Shown: positions 80-48,300 of the stretch, one piece after another
Layout of the letters: the number at the start of each line of letters is the position of its first letter
How positions within the stretch are numbered: position 1 is the first letter of the stretch
Assembly (NCBI RefSeq): GCF_000003815.2
Contig: NC_049996.1
Location: forward strand, 10,066,210 to 10,130,209
Origin: Branchiostoma floridae
Taxonomy: Eukaryota > Chordata > Leptocardii > Amphioxiformes > Branchiostomatidae
Direction of reading: 5' to 3'
Length of the DNA stretch: 64,000 nt
Notes under the pieces: generated by a model
Seen by the model: only the letters and a program-made list of their open reading frames with translations
Told to the model about the DNA's origin: nothing
Databases searched by the model: none
Program-made: the position numbers and the translations under genes

Positions 80-2465
80 ATGGCGTCAAGCAACATGGCG
101 TCCGGAAGGTCAAAGACGCTAGATTGCCTATACCTGTTACACCTCACCCTAGTATTAAGCCTGGGTGCTGGCACGGTCAAGAGCGCCGCAACTCGCTGCC
201 CCGAATTCTGCCACTGTGAGGCTGATGAGGACGGACAGATCGTATCTTGCATCGGGTATGATCTGAAGAACATCCCGAAAGGACTACCAGTGGACACCGT
301 ACAACTGAATATACGGAACAACGATATAGAAATCCTAGACTTGAACGATTTAAAGCCCCTTTTGCGACTGCAAGGGCTGGACGTCTCCGAGAACAATATC
401 AAGGCCATACAAGGAACATTTGAAGACTTTCCCAAGCTAACACAGGTCCAGCTTTACGACAATAAGTTGACAACTTTGTCGCCAGACACGTTCGGCAAGG
501 CTGCTACACGGATGCACTATGTGTCACTGTTCAACAACCCATGGAACTGTGACTGTAACTTGGTATGGGTGAAAACACAGATAGACTCTGAGAATTCTTC
601 CTTGTCTTCCCAAGGAGTGAAATGTGAGACACCAGAAGACTTACATGGTAACTACACCGCAGACATTGATGTGGACAAGCTAGTGTGTAAACAGACGCAA
701 GGTCTGTCCCAACTTCAGATGATACTAATATCATCTATATTGCCAGTAGTTGTCCTTGCCATCATAATAGTTACTGTAATATCCTGTTATTACAAACGCC
801 GTAAGCAATGACGTCAAGCTCTGACACGTGCCCAGCTTGATACAGGACCTGTAGGTTCACCGCACAATCAACCGCTACTCCAGCCTGACGGTCAAGCACA
901 TCCAGTCGAGATACCACAGCTTCCACCAGCACCTGGAAGGCAACCTGGTCTAGATCTGGAGAACCGTGAGCGACAACAGAATAATGATGACCTTGTTGTC
1001 CCTGTCAGGGCCGACGATAGGATTGCCTGTGCACCAAATGCTCCTGATAGTAAGTCACATATTCCTTATGTGTCTATTCATTATGTATGTAGTAATCCAG
1101 TACTTAGTACTAGTAATTGATCATGCTTCCTGTGTCATAAGTCTGATGACAAATATAATGGCACATAGATAAGACAGAATATGATGGACGTCTGGAAGCA
1201 AGTCTGTTGTCAATCCATAGACAAATGGAATAGCAATAATGAAGAGTTAACTCTTTGTCAGCTTTTTTATTTTTTATTGTTCCTACCTATCTATATGTCA
1301 TGATAGGAAAATATAATCAATGTCACAGCTAAACTGATCATTTGGGGCTACAGTCGCGACCAAGATATTGTGGATATTTAAATGATCACATACATGTAGT
1401 AATGTCTGTTTACCCCACAACAGTAGAGACAACACCAACATTCGTCTCACTGGGATGTGTGCCAACAAGCACTACAATCACACTGGAGTGGCGTTTCCAA
1501 GGTGACCGCCAACCGGACTCCTGCGAGTTGCATCACGGGAGGGATTGGATTAAAGGCATTCGGAGGGACGAAAACGGACCCTGGAGGTACACAGTGAACG
1601 TCATGCCGGACACAGAGCACAGTTTCCAAGTCAGAGGCATATTTGATCGACAAGAAGGACGAGTCAGTGAAATCATCCAACTGCAAACCCTTCTTACAGG
1701 TAAAACCATTCACGAGTATCAAAATAAATCTAATACAAAACTAGGACACACACACACACACAAATACCTCCATTTTTCATGGAGGTAAAAGTGGAATAAA
1801 CTCTTTTTATGTAACAGTATTTCTTCTGACTTTATGTTTATCTTGCCCAAGGTAGTAGCACAAATCTTCCTTTAAGTGGTTATTTTTATCTTTAGGCTGA
1901 AATTATGCTAAAACTGAGTTACGATGTAAATCATATACTCCTCCTATTTTCAGACAACTTACAGAAAGAATGCGAAGACGGTTGCACGGCCAGACAGTTC
2001 CTTAAAGACTTCTGCATAATAGGCGACAAGACCTACAAAGACTGGATGGAAAAACTTTGCAAAACGTTAGAAGGGACATGGGGGTTGACCGGCTGGTTAC
2101 TAGACCGTGACTCAGATCCAGGCACATTCAAGCTGGAAAACCTCGAGTGGCAAAAGCTGAATTGTAAGAAAGTCATTTTAGTTTTTGGCGAGAGTTCCGA
2201 CAAAACGTTGTATGAAGAAATGAATCTACAGACAGCTTTAATTGGGTTTCTCAAAGACACCAAGCAAGGAGGGGAACAACGGCTGATACCGATCAAAATG
2301 TCGTCTACAGTGGAGCTTCCTTCATACATGTCTGCTTTGGAGGAGCTTACTTTTGAAAATAACAAATACTTCTGGAAGCGGTTGATCACAGGACTTACAG
2401 ATAAGCATATTTGTGTGATGGATAATAAAAATGGTGAAGTAAAGACCGTAAGCTCTTCTGTATAA
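80..2465 (+). CDS. LRR–TM–FN3–TIR receptor-like protein, gene 1 (in-frame stop or mini-intron)
   Basis: Model: 80–800, 846–1049, 1424–1699, 1954–2465 (570 aa), all internal junctions phase 1. Start ATG 80 lies 10 bases after a cag acceptor (68–70) in a good Kozak context. Domains seen: signal peptide (about 12–33), LRR N-cap cysteines 40–57, two to three LRRs (72–150), LRR C-cap with N-N-P-W-x-C-D-C (152–203), transmembrane helix 214–236 followed by KRRK, a Pro-rich linker, an FN3-like exon (about 309–400, motif GCVPT…LEW), and a TIR-like exon (401–570) with box-2 RDSDPG, a LIPI strand and box-3 YFWKRL. By family knowledge it would be a membrane innate receptor signalling through TIR. A TGA at 809–811 interrupts the open frame after the transmembrane helix unless 801–845 is spliced out. 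Donor 801 may also join directly to 1424 in frame. If neither happens, the product is a truncated receptor of 243 aa. Ligand and pathway are unknown. Confidence 0.8.
801..845 (+). other. Putative 45-nt mini-intron containing an in-frame TGA
   Basis: It begins GTAAGC and ends ACAG, has a CTGAC branch-point-like motif at 821–825, and its length is a multiple of three. The reading frame is open on both sides and the flanking phases match (phase 1). Removing it deletes the TGA at 809–811. It is very short for an animal intron, so a real stop, readthrough or pseudogenisation are alternatives. Confidence 0.45.
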
Positions 2466-3490
2466 CCTTGAAGCCATTGTATACAAGTATGCCAACTTAT
2501 CACTGTGTGACAACAACTAGAAGAAAAGTTTGTAAATGCAAGCCGTGATGTACCTTTTATGATACAGTAATTCTTTTTAGTATGTGAGGTACCGGTATGC
2601 TTCCGATGTTTTCATGAAAGTCGTGTGCCAGATATATGAACTTTTACATGTTCTGAAATTAGTTGCTTGTAAAATGTCACAAATTGCATGATGCTAACTC
2701 TTTGTGTAGAATTTAGGAATGCTTTCTTTTGATAATATGTCTTGAGATCTTAAGTGTGGGTTTGTCATTTTAAAGAACAATGTTTTGCACCAGGACTGCA
2801 GTCATTCGGTGTGATATAATAGAAGCTTTGATATTGTTTGTTTTGAACTGAGTAAGGAATGGAGGAAAAGGTCAGTTTGTTGATACCTCATTTGCTACAC
2901 ACAATGGGGTAAATATGGTAGCCATGGTAGTCTTACTTGATATTCAGTACGAGTGTTCCGTCCATTGTAATTGAATTAAGCTCAGATCTAGTGAGTTCAG
3001 TATAACTAAATAATAGGCGTTCCCTGATAGGCAGAGTTTGATGACTGTGAGGTCAGCCAGATAATTGTTTAGACTAACCTTTACAGACGTGTTTCTATAA
3101 TTACTGGTACCACCTAGAGCTAAATATAGGTGTTTACCAAGATCTGTGCTATGATAACAGAAGATGTAAACATCAGTCTAAGGCTCTAAGCATTAGGCTG
3201 AAAGTCGTGTAGTCTACATGTACGAGTCTGTGTGCAGAAATCAAAAACAGATGACAAATTCAAATGTTATGAGCAAGTACAGCGTACCTTTGTCTTTATT
3301 AAGATCACAGCAAAATAAACCTGAGCTTATTCACATGTACTCATAATTTTTTCAGTAAGACATTTAAGTAGTAGTTATTGAAATACTTGGAAATACAGTT
3401 TTCATTCATATGGGACGCTACATCAAACTCTAAATAAATAACCACAAATTGTCCATAAATAATTCCATTTGAGGTAGATAAATGAGAACA
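2466..3490. other. Intergenic: 3' flank of gene 1, no gene seen
   Basis: AT-rich sequence after the stop of gene 1. No coding exon, RNA gene or clear repeat was recognised. Confidence 0.5.
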
Positions 3491-3590
3491 NNNNNNNNNN
3501 NNNNNNNNNNNNNNNNNNNNNNNNNNNNNNNNNNNNNNNNNNNNNNNNNNNNNNNNNNNNNNNNNNNNNNNNNNNNNNNNNNNNNNNNNN
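3491..3590. other. Assembly gap of 100 N
   Basis: Exactly 100 unknown bases, the usual placeholder for a gap of unknown size. It truncates the LRR gene on the minus strand. Confidence 0.99.
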
Positions 3591-3762
3591 GGTAGACGGC
3601 ACGACGAGGTATGTCCTCGGGTATCTCCGTGAGCCCCATCCCACCACAGGCCACTACCATCTCCCCGTACAGGGATACCGTACACTTACAGGCTGACGGA
3701 CAGGCCTGAACAGTAACAGCCGTCATGGTCATAGACAGGAGGAAAATGTCTCTTAATGTCAT
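3591..3762 (-). CDS. Partial LRR protein, N-terminal part only (runs into assembly gap)
   Basis: ATG at 3762 on the minus strand. About 57 residues are readable: a hydrophobic signal peptide, then an LRR N-terminal cap with cysteines in the order C-x3-C-x-C and a G-E-M-x-V-x-C-G-G-x-G-L segment. The cap is close to that of the LRR–TM gene at 9395–10252, so the two are probably paralogues. A 5' UTR acceptor lies just upstream on the minus strand. The frame beyond the gap (3430–3490) does not look like LRR, so the rest of the gene is in the gap or lost. It is convergent with receptor gene 1, matching the arrangement of the second receptor and its LRR neighbour. TIR or transmembrane content cannot be known. 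Confidence 0.75.
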
Positions 3763-6592
3763 CGCTGGTGTTTTCTTTATCCGTTCACTGTACGATCTGT
3801 AAAGATGAAAAAAATATAAGAATACACGTATGTAGAGTGGGGAGGGGGTAATATTATAGGTCCTGTGTCCACCAGCATTTAGATTTATAACAGAATTGAC
3901 AAGGAATATTCTGTGTCAAATTTTCGAAAATAAACCTTTAGCCATACCTCATAACGGCAGGTTACTTCGGTGCGCTACAATTTTCTTTATTTTCTCCTAA
4001 AAACTACTACTTCAATACAATGAATTTTGAATTGAGTGCCCGTTTTCGAATATATAATATTCCTATAGACAAGCTTTTAAAAGACACAGAAATTCTTGAC
4101 ATAAAAAAGAGACGACGTAATTATACACAAGATGACAAAGTTAGGATTCGTTGTTTGACTAAATTTTAAGCTAACCAACACTTGGTAAATGTGCGTTCTA
4201 ACGAAGTCCCCCTTAATGAGGCCACGTGCTATTTTTTTCACGTGTGCCTCAAGACATTCCCCGTGTCTTTTAAGGATTCAATTTTAAGGAGTCAAAAACA
4301 CAACAGAAAAAGTCATGTTGCCCTACCTTTTTATCAGACGTAAATCCGTTTGATTTCTTGTCTCGCAGCAGAAGAGATTTTTTCTGACCACACGTGGGGT
4401 GCCTCTGTCTGTAAATGCCGCTTCCTACGAGCACATGTCCTTTATATGCTGTCCTACAAATATTTACCTGTTGCCAGGTAGGATAGGGTTACATCTTGAA
4501 CAAAGGGGTTTTCCCGCGTGGAAAAGAACTGATCACGGTTGCATCATGCTGCACATTGTGTTACGGCATGGTGGATCATTACGTTTGAAACCGTCGATGG
4601 CAATCCTGTCTAGTCACGGTGATATGATTGTATGATAATCTAGTGTAGTCATTATGATAATCCAGTATAATCACATGGAATCTAGGGTATCTCCTTAGTG
4701 TTGACAGGCCACGACGTTTGAGAGTACCTACACTGCTTTTAAAAGAGCAATGCTGGTTTATTTTGATAATAAAGTATATGCCCATGGTGCTGTCCAAGAT
4801 ACGGAGATACAGACGTCTTAATATCTATGAAACAAGGCCCACATATATATACGATCTAAACTGTCAGATGTACCCCATATATAGACCTGTAAAAGTGAGG
4901 CTTTACGTCTCAAATAACCGAAATACTGTGCACGATAAATCATAGACAGCCACATTATAAAGGATGTAATCTTGAACATTTGGTATCATTCTATACCTGT
5001 ATAAATAGCCTTTGGATCCTACATTTTATGTGACTGTTCAAAATATTACAATGAAGTCTCATGGAACCTTATAGAATGCGCCTGGTTTGGCTAAGTCTTA
5101 AAAGATTTATTATGTGATCCTTCCGATGTATTATTTGCGAGAAGGAAAGGAAGAGATTGTAAGATCAAAGGCGACAGTCTTCTAATTAATACTATCAATG
5201 GGCAGTATGTCTTATGAGAACTACATGTATGTGTTAAGAGTTACTGTATTGGACATGTACTCGGTGTTTGCAGGGTGTATTGTCTTGTAACTGCACCACG
5301 TTGTTGACAGTGCTGAAAGACAGTAAACACGGCCATTACTAAATTATTCAGAACGGTATCAAATATATTACCTGTCTCGATAATCTCAAGACAGATTGGA
5401 CACATTGGAGTTTACATACACTCAGTCTTATGCGCCATATGTTCCACAGTATGACGTTGTACACAGTGCTGGTAGACAGTAAACACAGCCATTGTAAGTG
5501 TCGCTAGGACGGTATCGGATGTACATGTTTCACCTGTCTTTGTGAGCGATGACCTGTAAAGGTCATAGGTAAGAAGTCGGTCATGTGAGAATCACAGGGT
5601 GACGATATCGTAACATGTTGCAATAAAAAGTCTGGAAACTGTTCGGATCTTATCACAGCAGTCGCTGCATCTGGTACAGCTGTGTACTATAGACGCACGC
5701 AATCAAACTGTTGAGTGTATTTTTGGCCGTTTTACGCCAGAGCTCAGGTGTTAGGTTTACGGTGATCTGAGAACAGCTGGTGTCCTTTAAGATTGCTACG
5801 TCATCCGGAATATTTCTTTCGCACCGCCGTGTGAGGACTGCCGTAAGTAGATTCCAAGAATTCTAAAGAATAATTTGCAAACATATCTGATTTATTTTGG
5901 TTTTCGATTGTTATAGAAATGGGGGAGATCTTAGAAATTAAACAAAACGGAAGGAAACAAATGGTAACTGTCACTGCAACCGGCTGATAGTTCAACTTTG
6001 ACGTCATCAAGTAAAATGTTAAAATATTTGATATACCTAGCTGTAGATTTAGTCGAAAATTCCCCACAATGAATTAAGGAAATCGAGACAAGAAATGTTG
6101 TTTTCAAAATCGATATTTGATTACTCTCTTGTGATATTTGATTACTTCCCGGGAGACAATTTTCCATTACGTCACACATGCGGGGGTTCCCCTTTAATTA
6201 AGCTGTTCAGTTCGTAACGGAAATCACAGTTCGGGATGTAAAAATGACTTATAGACGGAATGATGAGCCAAAGGATGCAAACGAAAACGAAAACATGCAC
6301 AAAGATACATAGATATACGAAGACTAAACGATTTGCCCAATTTTCAAGGTTGTGCTACCAACGAACAGAAACAGGAAGAGTCTTTGTGACTCAGTCGAAC
6401 CGCCATTTTCTACATAAAATGGCCTCGTCACTGCTACCATTTTACCATCTTGCTCTTGCTGGAATTTTTCCAACGAACAAAAATGTAATTTAGCATTATC
6501 ACAAATCATTATCAATACAGAAGACAACCTTTTCAGAGCAAGAAAGAGAAGTGTGAACAGTTCCTTATTCTCTGTTTTTCTGTGTATTTCAG
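3763..6592. other. Intergenic between LRR cassettes, no gene recognised
   Basis: Contains a short diverged direct repeat near 5.3–5.5 kb (listed separately) and the upstream region of receptor gene 2. Short open frames here look like chance. No exon supported. Confidence 0.5.
5290..5550. repeat. Diverged direct repeat, two copies about 150 bp apart
   Basis: The blocks around 5299–5345 and 5451–5498 share a run of the type acgttgt…acagtgctg…agacagtaaacac.gccatt. They are followed in both by an acggtatc..at…acctgtct segment. Likely a small local duplication; no coding content. Confidence 0.55.
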
Positions 6593-6695
6593 ATATTGTT
6601 GACCTAGGTAAAACCGACACAGACAAGTTCGGGCAAGTTCTTAACATCACACCTCGGGGCTTCTTCAGATCAGAACGATACATCCATTCCACACA

Positions 6696-8400
6696 ATGAC
6701 AGGGCTTGGACTGGTGCTCGTCCTGTCTGTACTAGCAGTTCATACTTCGTTCAGTCAGAACGTGACGGACTGCTCGCCGTGCAGCTGTCAGCCAGATCCC
6801 GCCGGGGGAACCAACGTGGACTGCAGCGGGCTGGGTCTCACCGCGCTACCGACCAACCTTCCCAACGATACGGTGTCCCTCGGCTTCAAATACAACAACC
6901 TCACAACATTACACCTGGACGAACTGTGCAAGCTCAGACTCCTTGAAACTGTGGACTTGTCAAAGAACAAAATATCCTCAATACGCGGATCTTTTCGTTG
7001 CTTCGAATATCTTGAGTTTCACTTGTCGAATAATTCGTTAGAAACCCTTGACAGAAAAACGTTTGGGTCTTCACTAACACGGTTAAAGCAGGCGTTCTTG
7101 TTCAATAACCCATGGAAATGTGACTGCCATTTACTATGGTTAAAGTTAGACATGCAGAAATACAAAAACAAGTTTCCACCGAAGGAGGTAAGATGTCAAA
7201 GCCCAGAAAGGCTGAAAGGGAAATTGTTGAAGTATGTCAGCCCTGAGGACTTTACCTGCCCGTTTCCACTTTGGGGTAAGATATTGATCGGTGTGACCTG
7301 TGGACTACCTCTTGTTGGTATAGGAATTGTGTTGGCTTTTCGGTGGAAAAGGAAAACAGAGGAGAAAAAACGGAAACCGGTTTTCATCAAGGACGGGTGC
7401 GTGCCAACAGCCAAATCTCTGATACTAGAATGGACTTTTGCAGAGGGTTACAATCCAAGGTCATGCGTTATTTACATCACCGGTGGAATAGTTAAGACTA
7501 TCACCGTGCCAAACGAGCAATGTATGGATGGGATTTGGATATTAGAAGTGACAGAAGGCATAGCGTGTAATACAGAGTACACCGTTCGTGTGTCTGGGGG
7601 CTCGGAGACAGACCAGGGACCCTCCAGTGACACTATCTGTCTAGTGACCGTTAATCCAGGTAGGACAAGTTTTATACTTTTCTCACTTCTTTTTTTGGCG
7701 GGTGTGTGTGGAGTGTGAAGAGAATCATATTTAAGTTTCCCACTTTTTCTATGCTTATGCAAGAATATAGTATCGCAACATATATAAGCATTGCTGGCTA
7801 AAGTATGAAAGAAAACATGACCTCTATGACACATTCATGGAGGTAATTAACAAATATCGAACGAAAAAGACCCATAGAATGTACTTTACATCACACACAG
7901 GGGTACATGTGGTAGGACAACACGAAGAGCATACAGAATACCAGAGGAACTTCTGGATTATAGGTCACGAGGACGACCAAAGCCGAATAGAGAAACTGTG
8001 CAAAGCTCTGGAGAAACACCACGACCTAACAGGCGGGACGGAGTATAGGGACTTCGCGGGTGGTGACAGTGTTTTCGACAACCTAGATAATGCCATCTCC
8101 ACCTCTAAGATAGTGATTGTTGTGTTAAGCAATAACACCAAGGGGGACTGGGTCAAATACCAGATACAAACAGTCCGCCACTGTCTACTGGGCAGTGATA
8201 AAGAGGTAGACGGAAGTCAAAGATTGATACCAATTAGACTAACATGTTGTCGCATACCGCACTGTTTGCGGACATTAACAACCTTAGATGTGTGGAATAA
8301 GTACTTCTGGAGAAACTTGCTGGCTGCTTTTAACAAGGATACTTGCAATGATGATAATAGCACGGCTGAAAACATACCACTGGTTCAGAACAATGAATAA
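6696..8400 (+). CDS. LRR–TM–FN3–TIR receptor-like protein, gene 2
   Basis: Two coding exons, 6696–7659 and 7901–8400, phase 1 junction, 487 aa. A 5' UTR acceptor sits at 6591–6592. Domains: signal peptide 1–20; LRR N-cap C26–C43; LRRs about 60–137; LRR C-cap N-N-P-W-K-C-D-C to C188; transmembrane helix 195–215 followed by RWKRK; FN3-like domain 228–320 starting right behind the membrane and sharing GCVPT…LEW with gene 1; TIR-like domain 322–487 with box 2 RDFAGG, IVIVVLS, LIPIRL and box 3 YFWRNL. Box 1 is degenerate. Here the FN3 is fused to the LRR–TM exon, whereas in gene 1 it is a separate exon. Family knowledge suggests a membrane innate receptor with TIR signalling. The ectodomain is much shorter than a Toll-like receptor. 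The cytoplasmic FN3 is the oddity. Confidence 0.87.
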
Positions 8401-9394: not shown

Positions 9395-10252
9395 TTACAT
9401 GTAAACTTCTCTGCTATCAGAACGTGTGGGAATCATCGGCCTTGTCTCAACCTCTGTGCCTGTGTCCTGTTTACCCCTGTGGTACTCTTTACCGATTTTA
9501 AACACTATCAGCAAAACAACCAAGACTGCGACTGCCAATACAAGGATGGTCACGATTGTGGCTCCCCTAGACAGGGGTTTCTGGCTTCCCCTTTCAACAC
9601 GTGGGTCGTTTTCGGGAGTGGTGGTATCGTCTCCTTGTTCCGTGTCCACAAATGTGACTTCTGTATCACATTTGAAGTCAGACAGGGGCACGTCTGACAC
9701 GAAAGACCCATTAAGGTTATCGGGACTGTTACAGTACACGAGTCGCTCGCTGTAGACGGTTGTGTCGTTTGCGTACTTTTCCGCCAGCCATTTCAGGTGG
9801 CAGTCACAGCGCCAGGGGTTGTTGGCGAGGAAGACGAAGAACCTTCTTCCGTCTTGGTTTGCCGCGGCAAGAGGGGCTGCAAAGGTTTCCTCAGAGAGAG
9901 CTTGTAAGGCATTACCCGAGAGGTCGATGTTGTCTAGGTGAATAAGATGGCGGAGAGCCCCACGAGAGATTTTGCGGATGTTATTGTTGCTTAGGTCGAT
10001 ACCTTTCAGTTGCTTCAGACCCTTGAAATCGTGGCTGCCGATCTTTTCCAGGTTGTTGTACTTCAGAACAAGCCAAATTGTAGAATCTGGGATGCCGGCT
10101 GGGACTTGGTCGAGGCCTTGGCCGCCACAGGTTACCGTCATCTCACCGTGGGAGTCGACACAGTCACACGGGGCCGGGCATTGTGGAAGTTGTTGGGAGA
10201 ATAGCGGAGTCCACAGCAGCGTGAAAACAAGAAGCACTTTCTTCCTCCCCAT
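9395..10252 (-). CDS. LRR single-pass membrane protein without TIR
   Basis: A single coding exon of 285 aa. ATG at 10252 is preferred over an upstream non-ATG extension because it directly precedes the signal peptide (about 1–20). Then come an LRR N-cap (C-P-A-P-C-D-C…C-G-G), about four LRRs with LxxNN/SGN signatures, a C-cap with N-N-P-W-R-C-D-C, a Thr/Glu-rich stalk, a transmembrane helix (ATIVTILVLAVAVLVVLLIV region) and a tail of about 34 residues ending R-E-V-Y-M. A 5' UTR acceptor (ctag) on the minus strand lies near 10288. It is convergent with receptor gene 2. With no TIR it could be a co-receptor, decoy or adhesion LRR protein; function is unknown. It is paralogous to the partial gene at 3591–3762. 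Confidence 0.87.
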   Translation of the reverse strand: MGRKKVLLVFTLLWTPLFSQQLPQCPAPCDCVDSHGEMTVTCGGQGLDQVPAGIPDSTIWLVLKYNNLEKIGSHDFKGLKQLKGIDLSNNNIRKISRGALRHLIHLDNIDLSGNALQALSEETFAAPLAAANQDGRRFFVFLANNPWRCDCHLKWLAEKYANDTTVYSERLVYCNSPDNLNGSFVSDVPLSDFKCDTEVTFVDTEQGDDTTTPENDPRVERGSQKPLSRGATIVTILVLAVAVLVVLLIVFKIGKEYHRGKQDTGTEVETRPMIPTRSDSREVYM

Positions 10253-10288
10253 GTCGTTGAGTGTGTTTCTCAATGTTGACTTCTCCGC

Positions 10289-15400: not shown

Positions 15401-16663
15401 CTACAGCCAAGTGGACAACGTGGTTGCCGCTGCACCGGCTGCAGCCATGCCGCCTGAGATTGCTGGCCCATAAGCCGGAATGAATGCGGCCACAGGGGCT
15501 CCAATGGCCAATACTTTCCCTGTCGCCATTAGGGCCCCCTTACAGCCGCTGTATGTACATGCCTTCCAGTTCCACCTCTCCCACTTTGGCTCTTCGATGT
15601 TTTGGGCGGTGGCATGGAAGGCGACCTGGTTTGAACGACTCCCGGTGTAGAAGACCCAGCTGCAGGTCCTTCCATAGACTACGAGTTGTAGGTCACACAG
15701 TAACCAGGAACACTGATCACTGACCCATTTACTGGCGGCTCGCAAGAGGTCGGCATCCGACGTGATCGCAAACTCGGTGCCCCGATTCCTTATTTGCTTT
15801 TGTATGACATCAGCTGTCACCTTATCCGAACAGGAAATGGTAACTTCAGTTTCCTGGTACAAAACAAAAGTTCGGAGACTTCATACGTACATGAAATATT
15901 TTGGTTATGGAAATAACTTCGGCATTTACACAATCTAAGCATAGCTATGTGGACCTTCCGTAACTTACACAAGTCATAGGTATGAAATTCCTATCACTTA
16001 CTACTTAATTATGGCACTTGATTATGCACATTAGGTCCTTCGATCTTTGCATAACCTGGTGTAAACGGCTCTCTGATTTATTTATTTATTTATGAATGTA
16101 AAATTTATGTCTGATTATGCTCGTTACTCGTCACAAACGTATCTTGTATAGTCTCATTATGCAAAATAGATCCTTACAGTTACATTTTTTTTACAAATGT
16201 GCAGCACAATCATAATATTTATTCATTAATCATGCAAATAAAGTCTTCCTCACCTAAGCTATATACACAAAGTACACAACAAAGAGTATTCAATAAGCTA
16301 CGGAGGGAGAGGGGTCTATACAACTTATTCGTCCCTAACCAAAAGTAGGCACTCATTTTACCCCGAGTGAAGTGAGGAAAGTCGTGTTAAGTGCCTTTCC
16401 CAAGGACACAAGATCGATGACACGGCAGGATTCGGACCCGGGACCTGTAGGTCCTGAGGCAAAAACGCTGCCGATTACGCCAAGCGATCCCACAATTTGC
16501 GTCGTCAGGTTAAAGGTATTTGCGGTGTATTGACTAAAACTTCGTGTAGTCTTCTTTTCGATTAGCTAAGATAAATAAAACTTCTTGACCTTTAAACAAT
16601 TAACGACTCTGTAAAGTTTCGTTCATTTCGGTCGTTACTTACAGGTAGCTTCCCTACTCCCAT
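15401..16663 (-). CDS. Gene A1: unrecognised small protein with Gly/Ala-rich hydrophobic C-terminus
   Basis: Two exons on the minus strand: 16663–16643 (only MGVGKLP) with donor GTAAGT, and 15853–15401 after a ccag acceptor. Phase 0 junction, 157 aa. The start is chosen because paralogue A2 has the same layout (MGQGTGKIP). An ATG four codons upstream (16675) is an alternative. Seen: a conserved globular part with S-D-A-D-x-L-R-A-A, Y-G…W-x-F-Y-x-G-x-R-S-N-Q-V-A-F and a W-rich stretch, then a Gly/Ala-rich hydrophobic segment of about 40 residues at the end that could enter a membrane. Gly2 allows N-myristoylation, though position 6 is not ideal. No family recognised. It is divergent from gene B1. 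The hydrophobic tail is loosely reminiscent of interferon-induced membrane proteins, but homology is not claimed. Confidence 0.7.
16300..16492 (-). repeat. tRNA-derived SINE, inside the intron of gene A1
   Basis: Read on the minus strand from 16492 the sequence begins GGGATCGCTTGGCG, with an A-box-like TGGCGTAATCGG and a B-box-like GGTCCGAATCC about 45 bases later, then a SINE body with …CTTGGGAAAGGCACTTAAC. The B-box differs from consensus by one base. It resembles the second SINE at 41100–41294 in layout. Confidence 0.65.
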
Positions 16664-18910: not shown

Positions 18911-20512
18911 ATGGGTCAGTCAATGGGGTCTCCTGAAGGTCAACATCACCAGGCCGATGGCGATGAGTCCGACGGATACCAAGTAATGGTGAGTATGTAA
19001 TGTTCTCTTAAAACTCCGCTTGAATCGTTAGCATGTTTAATAGTGTCTATCTATGATTAATGGCGTTGTATTCAATCTAAGGAAGAACTCGGAGACCACT
19101 TACCGGCATGAGATATTTAGAGCTCTTATGAATCAATTGTTTCATCTCTGATTCTGCAATTAAGCTTGTAATAATCTAGAAGGATTTTAATTGACTGTCT
19201 TCTTTATAGCAATGGAATAATAGATTTTCCCCACCAAATATACAAATTACAAAAAAAAAAAACATTTTCATGAACAAAGTGCGTTTTTTTTCAGACGGTT
19301 GAAGAGATCAACAAAATCCAACTCGGCAAGCTCATCATCAAGTACTGTGGACACGAAGGGACAACAGACAACGAACAAACTGCAAGCCTTCGCAGGTTAC
19401 TGCAGCGGGCAATCACTAACCTGGAACCCCTACAGGAGCAGTACCCGGGGGTATGGAGGGATGCAGAACTCAAGATATTTGACCTGTATGGGAATGGTTA
19501 TGTGGTTAAGTCTGGGCAGGGTTCTGTCAAGTTTGTAGTTCAAATTACAGGAAAAGGTGATGTTGAGCTTAGTAAGATCAAAGAGGAGAGTTGGTGGACC
19601 TCCATGAAAGCTCTTTTTAAGAGGCAAGATACTCAGCAGCTTCAGATAGAGGGTGCCCCTCCTGAACAGAGTAATGCTAGTCAAAGCTGGCTCTCTTCCT
19701 TCCTTTCGTTCTGGCCGTCTAATAGTGGTTCACAACCAAGAGAGGGTCAGGTAGAGGGTGTTTTCCAGATGGTCCCAGGCAACCATGCTGAAGATGGGGA
19801 TGGGACACCTCATGGGGAACCTCAGGCAGAGGCTGTTTCTCCGATGGTCCCGGGCAGCCCTGGTGAAGATGGGGATGGGACACCTCATGGGGGACCTCAG
19901 GCAGAGGCTGTTTCTCCGTTGGTCCCGGGCAACCATGGTGAAAATGGGGATGGGACACCTCATGGGGAACCTCAGGCAGAGGCTGTTTCTCCGATGGTCC
20001 CGGGCAACCATGGTGAAAATGGGGATGGGACACCTCATGGGGAACCTCAGGCAGAGGCTGTTTCTCCGATGGTCCCGGGCAACCATGGTGAAAATGGGGA
20101 TGGGACACCTCATGGGGAACCTCAGGCAGAGGCTGTTTCTCCGATGGTCCCAGGCAGCCCTGGTGAAGATGGGGATGGGACACCTCATGGGGAACCTCAG
20201 GCAGAGGCTGTTTCTCCGATGGTCCCGGGCAACCATGGTGAAAATGGGGATGGGACACCTCATGGGCAACATCTGGACGAGTTGTTGACCGAGCATGATA
20301 AAGGGGATGGGTCACTAAACAATGAGCCCCCCTCGTCAACCTCATTCAACCTCAAACCAGCTGACAATCTGCCAAGCAGTGAGGGTCAAACAGGAGGTAA
20401 TGATATGTCAGGATCAGCTTCTCAGGTCCAGATACAGCCCACTGAAGCTACTGGCGGTATCCAAACTGATAAAAAAGAAGAGGATAACTTTTGCAATTAT
20501 TATGTGGTATGA
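18911..20512 (+). CDS. Gene B1: unrecognised Met-Gly-start protein with 25-residue coding minisatellite
   Basis: Two exons, 18911–18988 (26 codons, MGQSMGSPEG…, donor GTGAGT) and 19295–20512 after a polypyrimidine tract and cag; phase 0, 431 aa. Gly2 with small residues after it makes N-myristoylation plausible. Residues about 27–125 form a conserved domain (T-V-E-E-I-N-K, Y-C-G-x-E-G-T-T, L-Q-x-Q-Y-P-G-V-W, Y-G-N-G-Y-V-V-K-S-G-Q-G-S-V-K-F, S-W-W). Residues about 199–348 are six 25-residue Pro/Gly/Glu-rich repeats, preceded by a degenerate one. The tail is Ser/Gln-rich and ends F-C-N-Y-Y-V-V. The conserved domain is shared with B2 and more weakly with A1/A2. Function unknown. A membrane-tethered adaptor or effector is only inference. 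Confidence 0.78.
19748..20260 (+). repeat. 75-bp coding minisatellite in gene B1
   Basis: Six near-perfect 75-bp units at 19811–20260, preceded by a degenerate 63-bp unit from 19748. Each encodes a 25-residue block with the segments HGEPQAEAVSP, MVPG and NHGENGDGTP (or SPGEDGDGTP). Units alternate between the NHGEN and SPGED types. All other frames through the array are also open, giving long false ORFs on both strands. Gene B2 has only one degenerate unit. Confidence 0.95.
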
Positions 20513-22247: not shown

Positions 22248-23039
22248 TTACATCAATTCAGACCCTAAGCCTGACGTAACACCACCAATAGCCAGTGCAC
22301 CACCGGCTATTGGGTTCGTTGCAACAACCGCACCAGCTAGAGCGAGGAGCGCCTTTGACGCATAGTTAAGGGCTATTTTAACGCCATTATACACGTTAAG
22401 CTTCCACCCCTTTCTCTGCCATGTCGGCTCGTAGACTTTGGAATTATCGTTATAAAATGCAACCTGATTCGAGCGGTTCCCTGAGTAGAAGGTCCAACTG
22501 GAGAGTTTCCCGTAGACTGCAAGCTGAAGATTGCTCTTTACCCAGGAGTGTTCCTGGGTGACATATCTACAGGCTGCCCTCAGATAGTCCGCATCCGATG
22601 ACGTCGCGAAGTCGTCGCCTCTTCTCCTTATTTCAATGCGCAGTCGCTCTTTTATGATGTCCTCCGTGACCTCGCCCCCACAGTGAACCGTAACGTCAGT
22701 ATCCTTCAATGCAAAAAGGGCTGTATCAACAAATTGTAAATTTTGTGCACATGCATACGTATCTATTTGATTATCCATCAATTTTTAACTTTGTCACAAT
22801 GCTGTGAAGAAGGCAGAAAAAATAAAGTATAACACAATACATCTTGTTTTATGGATTCTATCCAACTTAAAATGACACAATCAAAGTATAATTGATAATT
22901 ATACTTAAAGTAGATAAGTAAATTTGTATTAATCATAAGACAAATATATAATGATACAACTTACAAAAGTATAATACAATTAATACATAATGCATAAAAG
23001 GTATTTACTCACAGGAATTTTTCCTGTTCCTTGCCCCAT
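22248..23039 (-). CDS. Gene A2: unrecognised small protein, paralogue of A1
   Basis: Minus-strand exons 23039–23013 (MGQGTGKIP, donor GTGAGT) and 22703–22248 after an aag acceptor; phase 0, 160 aa. It matches A1 along its length: D-T-D-V-T-V-H-C, S-D-A-D-Y-L-R-A-A, S-W-V…L-Q-L-A-V-Y-G, F-Y-S-G-N-R-S-N-Q-V-A-F-Y, then G-W-K. The C-terminal 45 residues are hydrophobic and Gly/Ala-rich with a central N-P-I, compatible with membrane insertion or a hairpin. Gly2 may be myristoylated. An unspliced ATG at 22781 would give a different N-terminus, but the A1 parallel favours the spliced start. It is divergent from B2. Function unknown. Confidence 0.72.
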
Positions 23040-24702: not shown

Positions 24703-25613
24703 ATGGGCCAGTCAATGAGCACTCCCGCGGGGTCAGCGGAAGGTCAACGAAGCCAAGATCAGGCATCCTATGGTTATGGTGTAATGGTAAATATATAACT
24801 TGTTGTTTCTACAGCTTGCTAGTAAAATATGTGAACTTTTACTATATCCCGGACATAATACGGTCTTGACATTTGGGTCTGATAAAAATGAATTCACTTT
24901 TTTAAGAAGCAAAGTTTTTCTTTCAGACGGTTGAAGAGATCAACAAACCTAAACTTGGGAAACTTATCATTGAGTACTGTGGAAACGAGGGGACAACAGA
25001 CGATGAGCGGACAGCAAGCCTTCGCAAGTTACTGCAGCGAGCAATCACTAACCTGGAGCCCCTACAGAAGCAGTACCCGGGGGTATGGAGGGATGCAGAA
25101 CTCAAGATATTTGACCTGTATGGGAATGGGTATGTGGTTAAGTCTGGGCAGGGTTCTGTCAAGTTTGTAGCACTGATTACAGGGAAAGGTGATGTTGAGC
25201 TTAATAAGATCAAAGACGAGAGTTGGTGGGCCTCCATGAAATCTCTGTTTAAGAGTCAAAATACTTCACAGCTTCAGATAGGGGGTGCCCCTACTGACCA
25301 GAGGCCGTCGAATAGTGGTTCACAACCAAAGGAGGGTCAGGTAGATAATGCTTCTCTTATGGTCCCAGGAAGCCCTGGTGAAGATGGGGATGGGGCAGCT
25401 AAAGGGGAACATCAGGACCAGTCACCAAGTGGGCATGGTGGAGGGGATGGGCCACTTAACAATCCGCCCTCCTCATCAAGCTCGTTCAATCCACAACCAA
25501 CTGACAATCAGCCAAGCAGTGAGGGTCAAATAGGAAGTAATGATATATCAGGATCAGCTTCTCAGGTCCAGCTGAAGCTTCTGGGGGTAGCCAAACTGCT
25601 AAGAAAGAATTAG
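24703..25613 (+). CDS. Gene B2: paralogue of B1 with shortened repeat and shifted C-terminus
   Basis: Exons 24703–24786 (28 codons, MGQSMSTPAG…, donor GTAAAT) and 24927–25613; phase 0, 256 aa. Gly2 with Ser6 is a good N-myristoylation context. The conserved domain is nearly identical to B1 (T-V-E-E-I-N-K, Y-C-G-N-E-G-T-T, Y-G-N-G-Y-V-V-K-S-G-Q-G-S-V-K-F, S-W-W). Only one degenerate copy of the 25-residue repeat is present. Compared with B1, ten bases are missing near 25570, so B2 ends in L-L-R-K-N at 25613. The B1-like frame stays open for about 13 more codons beyond this stop and ends in a Cys-rich tail (…C-x-C-Y-I-G). Whether this is a functional change or decay cannot be told. Confidence 0.75.
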
Positions 25614-45300: not shown

Positions 45301-48300
45301 TAACTGGGCCCCAAACCAACATCTGAATTAATCCTTGAAATAGTTAAACTGTAATTTCCAACACCAAAATTGGACTCACCCAAATTTTCGACTGTACAGC
45401 ATCAGTCTTTGTCAAGGAATGAACAATCCACTGCTGTTGTGACGTCACGTTATGTAGATAGAACACATGACTCAGTAAGCAGTGGATTATAGGTTGCAGG
45501 AAGTCTATGGCGCCCACCGTCTCTGTTCAGGGATGGTTGTAGAGCCCGGATGTAGATTGCTTCTTTAATCCCTCTGGCGAAAAAGTCTGGTTCTGTGTCC
45601 AAAATTTCAACTTTGTCTAGTGACACTGAATGACCCGGCGATTCTATGTGTATATGTTGGGAAACTTCTGAGGTTTTTGAACTCTTGCATTTGTGCTCAA
45701 GGAACCTGGTCTTAAGTGATCTTTCAGTCTCCCCAATATAGGTTTCTGTACAAGGGCCCCTAATGTTCTGTCCTTGGCACTTAATATGATAGATGACACC
45801 ACACTTTTGTTCTTTAGGGGTTTTGTCTTTAGGTGCTACAAGGATGTTGCGCAGAGTATTCGCCGGCCTGAAACAGGTTTTTATCCCATGTGAGGTGAAG
45901 ATTCTTCTAAGTCCTTCAGATACACCTTTCACGTAAGGAAGCACAACAATTCCCCTGTTTTTCCCTCTGCTGGCGTTGTTCTGTGTAGTATCACTGGGTG
46001 ATGGGGGTTTGGGTGCTGTGGCCTTCTCTATGGCCCATGTGGGGTATCCGCACGTTTTCAACGCCTGGGTAATGTGAAGTTTCTCCTTCTGTTTGTCTTG
46101 AGGGTCAGTTATCACTGTTTCCGCCCTGTGGAAAAGGGTACGTACAACACTTACTTTGTGTTCTAACGGATGTTCCGACTGGAAGTTCAAATATTGATCA
46201 GTATGAGTAGGTTTGCGGTAGATTGTCACTCGCAGGGACCCGTCTTCTTGAACTGTTGTCAAAGTGTCAAGGAAGGCTAAGGATCTGTTCTCTTCCTTCT
46301 CAAATGTGAACTTTATGTCAGGATCAAGGCTGTTTAGATGATCTGTGAACTCGTCTGCGTACGTCTTCTTAAGTTTGGTATGGGTGTCATCAACATACCT
46401 GTACCACCACAGACGGGGGTGGGGGGCAGTTCTGAGGGCACGTTGTTCTAGATGCTCTAAGTAGAGGTTGCATACAATGGGGGACACAGGTGATCCCATC
46501 GCCGCTCCATGTATTTGTTTGTAGAAGATGCCATCATAAACAAAATAAGTACAATTGAGACACACTCTGAGTAGATCAGCCAACTGTTCTGGTTTCAAAG
46601 TAGTGCGATCAGATAAGGTCTGGTCCTCCTTTAACCTCTGCAAAATCACTTAGACTTCCTGCAACCTATAATCCACTGCTTACTGAGTCACGTGTTCTAT
46701 CTACATAACGTGACGTCACAACAGCAGTGGATTGTTCATTCCTTGACAAAGACTGATGCTGTACAGTCGAAAATTTGGGTGAGTCCAATTTTGGTGTTGG
46801 AAATTACAGTTTAACTATTTCAAGAATGACTTATACCAACACAGATGAACTTTCAAGTTATAATCTGAATTAATGGCAAGATTGTTTAAGGTGACAAATT
46901 GTAAGTTTATATAAATGTATGACATTCTGTGTCAATTTGTGACATGCAGCCATTAAAGAACTAGTATCAAAGAATTTCAACATGTCTTTCTTCAGTAGTT
47001 GTAAAAACATAAAAAAAGAGATACTTTATAGAATTGTTATAAAAGAATAACTTTTTTTACCTGATTCCAGAAAAGGCCTAACGAAAGTAGCAAATTCTAA
47101 AAAGGGAAAAACATTCATTTGTGTGTGTGTGTTTTTGTCATGAATTTCTCCCTCCTCCAGACTTCCATCTTGAACCGTGATCAGACAGATGAATGGAAAG
47201 GCTGGATGCAGCTGGTTATACTCATCTACCACTACACTGGGACCAGCTCTGTAAGGAATTTTTGTATACTGTGCATTCTGTTCTATTGTCTATTGTATGT
47301 CATACCTTTGCTGTGATGATGTTTGATACAGATAATCTGGGCTAGGTAATGTTTTACAGTATCACACAAGCCTCAACCATCTACCATCTACCAATGCATG
47401 AAGAATGATGATTTGATAATTTTCATCATTTTCGTCATTTTTATAGTTTTAATTCTGTCAAAAATGCTGTCAAATACCTGATTATGGTGTTGGAATTGAT
47501 GTCCCATGTAATTTTCTGTCTGAGGGTGCCAAAATTTCTAAATTTCTGGTGCATCAAAATTGCATTGAAATGTGTATTTTCAGTGGCTGGTATGACAAGT
47601 AAAGAATACAATACACAGTATTCCGCATTACCCTCAGCCCCAGCCCCCCTATGGGTCTACCTGTGTTGATATGGAATAAGCTGTGTTGTATTCTAGTTTG
47701 TGTCTTCTTTTATGCTTACCATGCAAATGTATTGTACCATGCAGTACAGATGCTACATTACACAACTGTACATGTACCTCATTTTTCCCCCCAGTACCTC
47801 CCTATCTACATGCACATCCGTATCCTGGTGGCCATGTACCTGTTCCAGACTGGATACGGACACTTCTTCTACTTCTGGATGAAGGGTGACTACGGCATTG
47901 TCAGGCTCTGTCAGGTGGGTAGTTCCCAGGGTCCTTATGTTGTAAGAAGGTCAGAGACATTTTCAGGAGAATAGGGGAGGGTTATACAGTTATAGTAACA
48001 GGCACAACCAGTGACAGAAAGAGCCAGTGACTGCATGAACACTATTGCCAAGTTGCAGTTACCAGACAACAGATGTTAGGGTAGACCAAGTAAATGTTGG
48101 TTGCAGTGTGTCAGGACATCAAAGTGTGCAGACTAACCATTGTGGATCCACAGGACAGTGCTGCCTGGAAACTTGGTGTGAAGACTAGCCAACTGTTGCC
48201 TCAATGTCAGGGTGTCAAACACTAGATACTACTACTAATATGTGTGTTCTAGAAATTTTAGATATGATCAAATTACAAAGAGAGCCTGTAAAGTACCCAT

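Follow-up and report, generated by a model that had tools for sequence, protein, structure and literature searches.

A lancelet gene joining a short LRR ectodomain and a transmembrane helix to an FN3-like segment and a TIR domain, and its interrupted neighbour

The stretch of DNA analyzed here comprises 64,000 nucleotides of the lancelet Branchiostoma floridae (C18:10066210-10130209, hereafter the window), in which two neighbouring genes, gene 1 (80-2465) and gene 2 (6696-7659 joined to 7901-8400), lie inside a cluster of small leucine-rich repeat (LRR) genes. Gene 2 has a real and unusual architecture: its frame is open over 487 residues plus a stop and contains, in this order, a short LRR ectodomain, one transmembrane (TM) helix, an FN3-like segment and a C-terminal TIR domain. 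Gene 1 is composed of the same parts, but it carries an in-frame TGA directly after the TM helix, and is a doubtful second copy of the gene 2 architecture. Our best explanation, to which we assign a probability of roughly 0.64, is that the product of gene 2 is a type I receptor, belonging to a small LRR-TM family and provided with a shuffled-in FN3-like and TIR tail, gene 1 being its fast-evolving sister. The initial annotation of this DNA had described the same domain order in two independent genes, and had proposed a candidate new receptor class. The order holds for gene 2, while in gene 1, as modelled, the stop codon had been missed; moreover, "new receptor class" is too strong a term, as members of the same ectodomain family carry Death or short tails, and both cytoplasmic FN3 domains and lancelet TIR combinations are already known.

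Architecture of gene 2 and its homology to gene 1

In gene 2, the Pfam models LRRNT (30.7 bits) and LRRCT (21.8 bits) were matched above cut-off, and the LRR repeat models below it. In gene 1, matches to LRR_8 (31.7 bits), LRR_4 (31 bits) and LRR_1 exceeded the cut-off, with LRRNT and LRRCT_2 remaining below. As the TM helix and the FN3-like segment of gene 2 are encoded in one exon, the order of these parts is independent of splice prediction; the single intron (7659|7901) keeps the TIR exon in frame. This intron and the two borders modelled in gene 1 (1049|1424 and 1699|1954) are all GT-AG and phase 1, and the FN3-like segment is indeed a separate exon in gene 1 and fused to the TM exon in gene 2.

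Chance resemblance between the two genes was ruled out by pairwise homology of all three parts: identity amounts to 34% in the ectodomain-TM parts (E 7e-36), 30% in the FN3-like segments (E 4e-12) and 33% in the TIR domains (E 3e-18). Regarding the TIR motifs reported previously (RDxxPG and FW boxes), the FW box reads KYFW in both genes, whereas box 2 is complete in gene 1 only (RDSDPG), the corresponding RDFAGG of gene 2 lacking the proline.

The in-frame stop codon of gene 1

The TGA of gene 1 lies inside exon 1 as first modelled, and the 1049|1424 gene model is therefore interrupted. Upstream of the stop there is a candidate alternative donor, GCC|GTAAGC, likewise in phase 1. Its predicted joining to position 1424 would render the stop intronic, resulting in an open protein of 502 residues plus a stop, with a short linker between TM and FN3-like segment as in gene 2. 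Scored with a simple donor frequency matrix, this donor at 801 reaches -0.87 (top 15.7% of the 4084 GTs scored in the window), against 3.29 for the donor at 1050, with which the message would be truncated after the TM helix. Between the stop and donor 1050, the exon 1 frame remains open over a proline-rich stretch (812-1049), which could be either a cytoplasmic linker behind the stop or an intron. Its guanine-plus-cytosine (GC) content of 0.54 is reached by 2.4% of the window segments, and 79 open codons at its composition would occur by chance in 4.5% of cases. The codon log-odds of this stretch are highest in frame (0.23, top of six frames); however, three other frames are also positive (0.18, 0.16 and 0.14) and the same score is attained in 160 of 3204 stop-free windows, indicating that the codon signal is partly a GC effect. 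Altogether, we lean slightly towards an original exon end at position 1050, with the TGA representing damage.

Gene 1 could, in that case, be a failing or null allele, in which a cytoplasmic linker up to 1049 truly forms the end of exon 1 and the product is truncated by the TGA, leaving gene 2 as the sole working receptor. The better score of donor 1050, the GC-rich composition and exon-like codon use of 812-1049, and the longer branch of the gene 1 TIR domain in the tree described below are in agreement with such a possibility, as is L081, an LRR-TM-Death relative that has 53 open residues between the TM helix and the end of its frame. On the other hand, gene 1 retains open FN3-like and TIR exons with intact splice sites, donor 801 yields a short linker, as seen in gene 2, and the codon signal is weak. 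We judge this explanation to fall somewhat short of an even chance; it is compatible with our best explanation for gene 2. It is unlikely that gene 1 is alternatively spliced, with donor 801 giving the full receptor and another form ending after the TM helix and acting as a decoy: both donors are in phase 1 and compatible with exon 2, but donor 801 is weak, and two useful isoforms would be required. For the earlier argument that conservation in two paralogues speaks against a gene-prediction artefact, gene 1 does not provide a clean second witness.

The middle segment and its topology

A stretch of about 90 residues, common to both genes, separates the TM helix from the TIR domain. Based on profile comparisons and on a structural model, this segment is FN3-like, and probably an FN3 domain. 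A profile built from the two sequences was compared with the PDB, and chains of RPTP-delta and RPTP-S occupied the first five of 16 rows, the best match reaching E 5.6e-5 for a whole chain with two FN3 matches (best single match, 0.38). The FN3 proteins FN3con, NCAM2 and contactin-1 appeared in lower rows, and the reversed profile, used as a control, retrieved two chains, neither of them an FN3 protein by name. When 16 FN3 domains from the lancelet genome were aligned with the pair by HHalign, the probability was 88.6% over 29 columns, as opposed to 0.3% with the reversed pair; none of 500 shuffled sequences reached the score of either gene (7.4 and 13.1 bits). In addition, an AlphaFold model obtained from the two sequences shows six strands, FN3 being a seven-strand beta-sandwich, with a predicted local distance difference test (pLDDT) score of 57.7 and a predicted template modelling score of 0.47.

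Some observations weigh against an FN3 identity. Pfam gave no FN3 match in either segment, and the PDB rows also hold non-FN3 chains at weak E values (flagellin, 0.12; endoglucanase, 0.26; and others). Furthermore, the above model, the sole usable one, is of low confidence and falls below 50 at both ends, and the single-sequence AlphaFold model of gene 2 exon 1 has a pLDDT of 36. The FN3 assignment made initially is backed by the profile comparisons and a low-confidence model, with no match in Pfam.

The genome searched comprises 513 Mb in 431 contigs. Single-protein searches for the FN3-like and TIR combination returned two matches each, both being the window genes, with 4 and 2 candidates scored, so that distant copies could be missed. 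Likewise, an FN3-like profile run over the open frames of at least 30 residues from 55 loci and the window found only genes 1 and 2, in the window and in overlapping loci (E up to 1). A larger FN3-like and TIR family within reach of single-protein searches of this genome was considered and set aside, since these recover the window genes only.

By hydropathy, each protein has one strong TM helix besides its hydrophobic N-terminus (mean hydropathy of 3.02 and 2.43), and the helix is followed by basic residues in both genes, in agreement with the initial description. A single TM helix with basic residues on its C-terminal side would place the FN3-like segment inside the cell. Such cytoplasmic placement, already proposed in the initial annotation, finds support in gene 2, where the helix, the basic residues and the segment share one exon, while in gene 1 the reading is cut by the TGA. 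Two cysteines conserved in the FN3-like segments argue against it, as these would suit an extracellular domain. Neither segment contains a glycosylation sequon; however, two sequons are found in the TIR domain of gene 2, meaning that sequons are no proof of topology.

Affinities of the TIR domains

With PF01582, TIR domains were detected at 85 places across the genome; gene 2 is second to last in the list and gene 1 is absent from it. A tree of 35 TIR domains was obtained, including 33 of the loci L001-L055; loci in overlap with the window, duplicate entries for one place, larger stretches, L028 (internal stop) and L045 (weak, with internal stops) were excluded. In this tree, genes 1 and 2 join four short TIR proteins lacking an evident TM helix, apart from the sampled Toll-like receptors (TLRs), with support of 91/85. 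The nearest TIR domains elsewhere in the genome belong to short TIR proteins and to another TIR protein, in which TPR is matched weakly (27.3 bits, below the cut-off of 27.8); no TM helix is evident in them, no 19-mer exceeding a hydropathy of 1.25 in the five frames examined. The TIR domains of genes 1 and 2 may thus group with non-TM TIR proteins rather than with TLRs, without strong support. Against such grouping, 91/85 falls short of the tool's 95/80 mark, long branches (2.56 for gene 1 and 0.85 for gene 2) call for caution regarding the joins, and Toll-receptor-related 2 and TLR structures lead the PDB matches of the TIR pair profile. As a separate observation among the TIR loci, L051 (C17:12.02M) and L052 (C17:2.05M), about 10 Mb apart, are two copies of one arrangement, in which two TIR-like frames have opposite orientations, with 88% and 97% identity between copies.

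Genes 1 and 2 resemble TLRs in their LRR ectodomain with LRRNT and LRRCT, one TM helix and a C-terminal TIR domain. In TLRs, the TIR domain comes after the TM helix via a short linker, whereas genes 1 and 2 have a very short ectodomain and an FN3-like segment between helix and TIR. It could be argued that both genes are diverged TLRs and that the middle segment is a mere juxtamembrane linker. Besides the leading PDB matches and the missing Pfam FN3 match, this would agree with the working rule of one lancelet survey, by which a minimum of one LRR, one TM and one TIR domain suffices for a TLR and genes 1 and 2 would be included (PMC6224433). Nevertheless, the segment is conserved as a unit between the genes, has its own exon in gene 1, and is supported as FN3 by the profile comparisons. 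This insert and, less firmly, the TIR grouping speak against simple TLR membership, and we consider the diverged-TLR reading distinctly unlikely.

Related LRR-TM genes and their cytoplasmic tails

Relatives of the ectodomain were searched for by scoring 150 of 1417 candidates. Nine of the ten best LRR matches of gene 2, including gene 2 itself, are located on C18; the remaining match is on C218, a small contig. Eight of these ten are relatives other than genes 1 and 2, and tails could be read in six of the eight, four being short (25-28 residues in the three measured) and two carrying a Death domain; the others are found at 6977.1k and on C218. Family members with a Pfam Death match are three in all (L080 159-1208, minus strand; L081; and L076), all sharing chromosome C18 with genes 1 and 2. 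These small receptors have a related LRR ectodomain and TM helix, and a Death domain where genes 1 and 2 have the FN3-like segment and TIR; no piece of genes 1 and 2 has a Pfam Death match. Two more Death-tailed genes, at 6966.7k and 1484.6k, are suggested by paired matches only.

These relations are best read as those of a small family of LRR-TM receptors whose cytoplasmic tails are exchangeable, the FN3-like and TIR combination being a rare one. A point against it is that short tails were read from open frames, and an additional exon joined by splicing may have escaped notice, just as it would in gene 1. More tentatively, and with the odds leaning against it, one small LRR-TM ectodomain family with exchangeable tails (Death, FN3-like and TIR, or short) would be accompanied by an FN3-like and TIR cassette representing a previously undescribed cytoplasmic module, which builds TIR receptors independently of TLRs. 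Lastly, it is very improbable that the LRR-TM exon and the FN3-like and TIR exons are separate genes, adjacent and in phase by accident: the gene 1 stop after the TM helix would fit a complete LRR-TM gene comparable to the short-tailed relatives, but LRR, TM and FN3-like parts share one exon in gene 2, and the same order is found twice.

Features of the window and of related loci

The features discussed are collected in Table 1.

Table 1. Features of genes 1 and 2, of their neighbours in the window and of relatives elsewhere. Positions are those of the window unless a locus or contig is given.
Feature	Position	Strand	Evidence
Gene 1 exon 1: hydrophobic N-terminus, LRRNT-like, LRRs, LRRCT-like, TM (19-mer 725-781), basic stop-transfer KRRKQ	80..808	+	Pfam and hydropathy
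Gene 1 candidate alternative donor, upstream of TGA	801..802	+	Donor score
Gene 1 in-frame TGA directly after TM (KRRKQ*)	809..811	+	Frame reading
Gene 1 proline-rich open stretch, to donor 1050	812..1049	+	Frame of exon 1
Gene 1 exon 2: FN3-like segment (GCVPT...LEW)	1424..1699	+	Profile comparisons; homology to gene 2 segment
Gene 1 exon 3: divergent TIR	1954..2465	+	TIR_2 26.3 bits, below cut-off 28; homology to gene 2 TIR
N-terminal part of further LRR gene, interrupted by 100-base N run (3491-3590)	3433..3775	-	24 bits
Gene 2 exon 1, first part: hydrophobic N-terminus, LRRNT, LRRs, LRRCT, TM (19-mer 7281-7337), basic stretch RWKRKTEEKKRK	6696..7382	+	Pfam and hydropathy
Gene 2 exon 1, last part: FN3-like segment	7383..7659	+	Profile comparisons; low-confidence model
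Gene 2 exon 2: TIR domain and stop	7901..8400	+	TIR_2 44.1 bits (cut-off 28); TIR 28.4 bits
Neighbouring member of the LRR-TM ectodomain family, short tail	9395..10288	-	140.5 bits against profile of both LRR-TM parts; Pfam LRR
Other short-tailed relatives	L076 109-1074; L077 12-899; L079 81-944		Frame ends after TM
Death-tailed relative, single 350-aa frame	6969.7k		Pfam Death 51.6 bits
Death-tailed relative, separate Death exon	1504.1k		Pfam Death 42.6 bits
TM and Death frame	L076 1867-2499 = C18:10037566-10038198	-	Death 39.6 bits; LRRCT by eye only

A profile scan of the window frames revealed no FN3-like or TIR frame besides those of genes 1 and 2. Elsewhere in the window, two related open frames on the plus strand (19274-20512 and 24906-25613; 72% identity over 184 residues) have no Pfam match above cut-off, and in the first of them a 75-base (25-residue) unit is repeated seven times in tandem, with 94% matches. 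They alternate with a second pair of related open frames on the minus strand (15401-15880 and 22248-22784; 42% identity over 156 residues), which have no Pfam match. Moreover, a reverse-transcriptase-like frame on the minus strand (45450-46649; RVT_1 22.6 bits, below cut-off) is followed by a GIY-YIG-like stretch, recognized by eye; we presume that it is perhaps a Penelope-like element.

Comparison with known receptors

The IL-1 receptor family has an Ig ectodomain, differing from genes 1 and 2, in which the ectodomain consists of LRRs according to Pfam. Integrin beta4 is not an LRR receptor and has no TIR domain. It does, however, share with genes 1 and 2 the occurrence of FN3 behind the TM helix: in this transmembrane receptor, FN3 domains are reported to be cytoplasmic and to serve in docking, one of them binding plectin (PMC4452579). 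In the ctenophore Mnemiopsis leidyi, FN3 and TIR2 occur in one predicted protein, thus sharing two parts with genes 1 and 2; however, its FN3 is described as extracellular and none of the TIR2 proteins is reported to have LRRs (PMC11797021). Lancelets themselves have been credited with 28 TIR domain combinations, 20 of which are lancelet-specific, with hybrid genes including TIR-NACHT, TIR-SAM and TIR-Laminin; genes 1 and 2 would represent the same lineage-specific TIR shuffling, and their order is not named among these hybrids in the portion of the paper at hand (PMC2575513).

No title in our literature search names the LRR-TM-FN3-TIR layout; the TIR-partner table of PMC2575513 lay outside that search, and a prior mention there is possible. 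A search on the comparison with BCAP/DBB found no paper. Overall, the layout may be new in detail, while unusual TIR combinations in lancelets and cytoplasmic FN3 domains, as in integrin beta4, were already known.

Proposed mechanism and significance

Taking gene 2 as a type I receptor, its short LRR ectodomain would bind a ligand or a partner, thereby pairing receptors. One helix would span the membrane, and the predicted FN3-like beta-sandwich in the cytoplasm may set the spacing or dock a partner, by analogy with the plectin-binding FN3 of integrin beta4. The C-terminal TIR domain would then signal through TIR-TIR contact, recruiting a TIR adaptor, which in gene 2 is perhaps other than MyD88. 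In a lancelet TLR22-like receptor, alanine is reported at the place of the box-2 proline that gene 2 lacks (proline 681 of human TLR2), and the authors hypothesise that this causes the absence of MyD88-type signalling in HEK293 cells (PMC6224433).

Shuffling of phase-1 exons probably attached the FN3-like and TIR tail to an exon encoding LRRs and TM, the source perhaps being a TIR gene other than a TLR; the presumed direction of exchange would be the gain of a tail by an existing exon. Gene 1 would make the same receptor only with donor 801, or with another donor upstream of the stop; otherwise, a tailless protein ending after the TM helix is expected, which could serve as a decoy.

The window may hold a case in which a TIR receptor was built by adding a tail to an existing LRR-TM exon, rather than by descent from TLRs. 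With Death tails present on the same ectodomain family, the idea that the same kind of sensor has been wired to different outputs becomes testable, as does the role of an FN3-like spacer between the membrane and the TIR domain.

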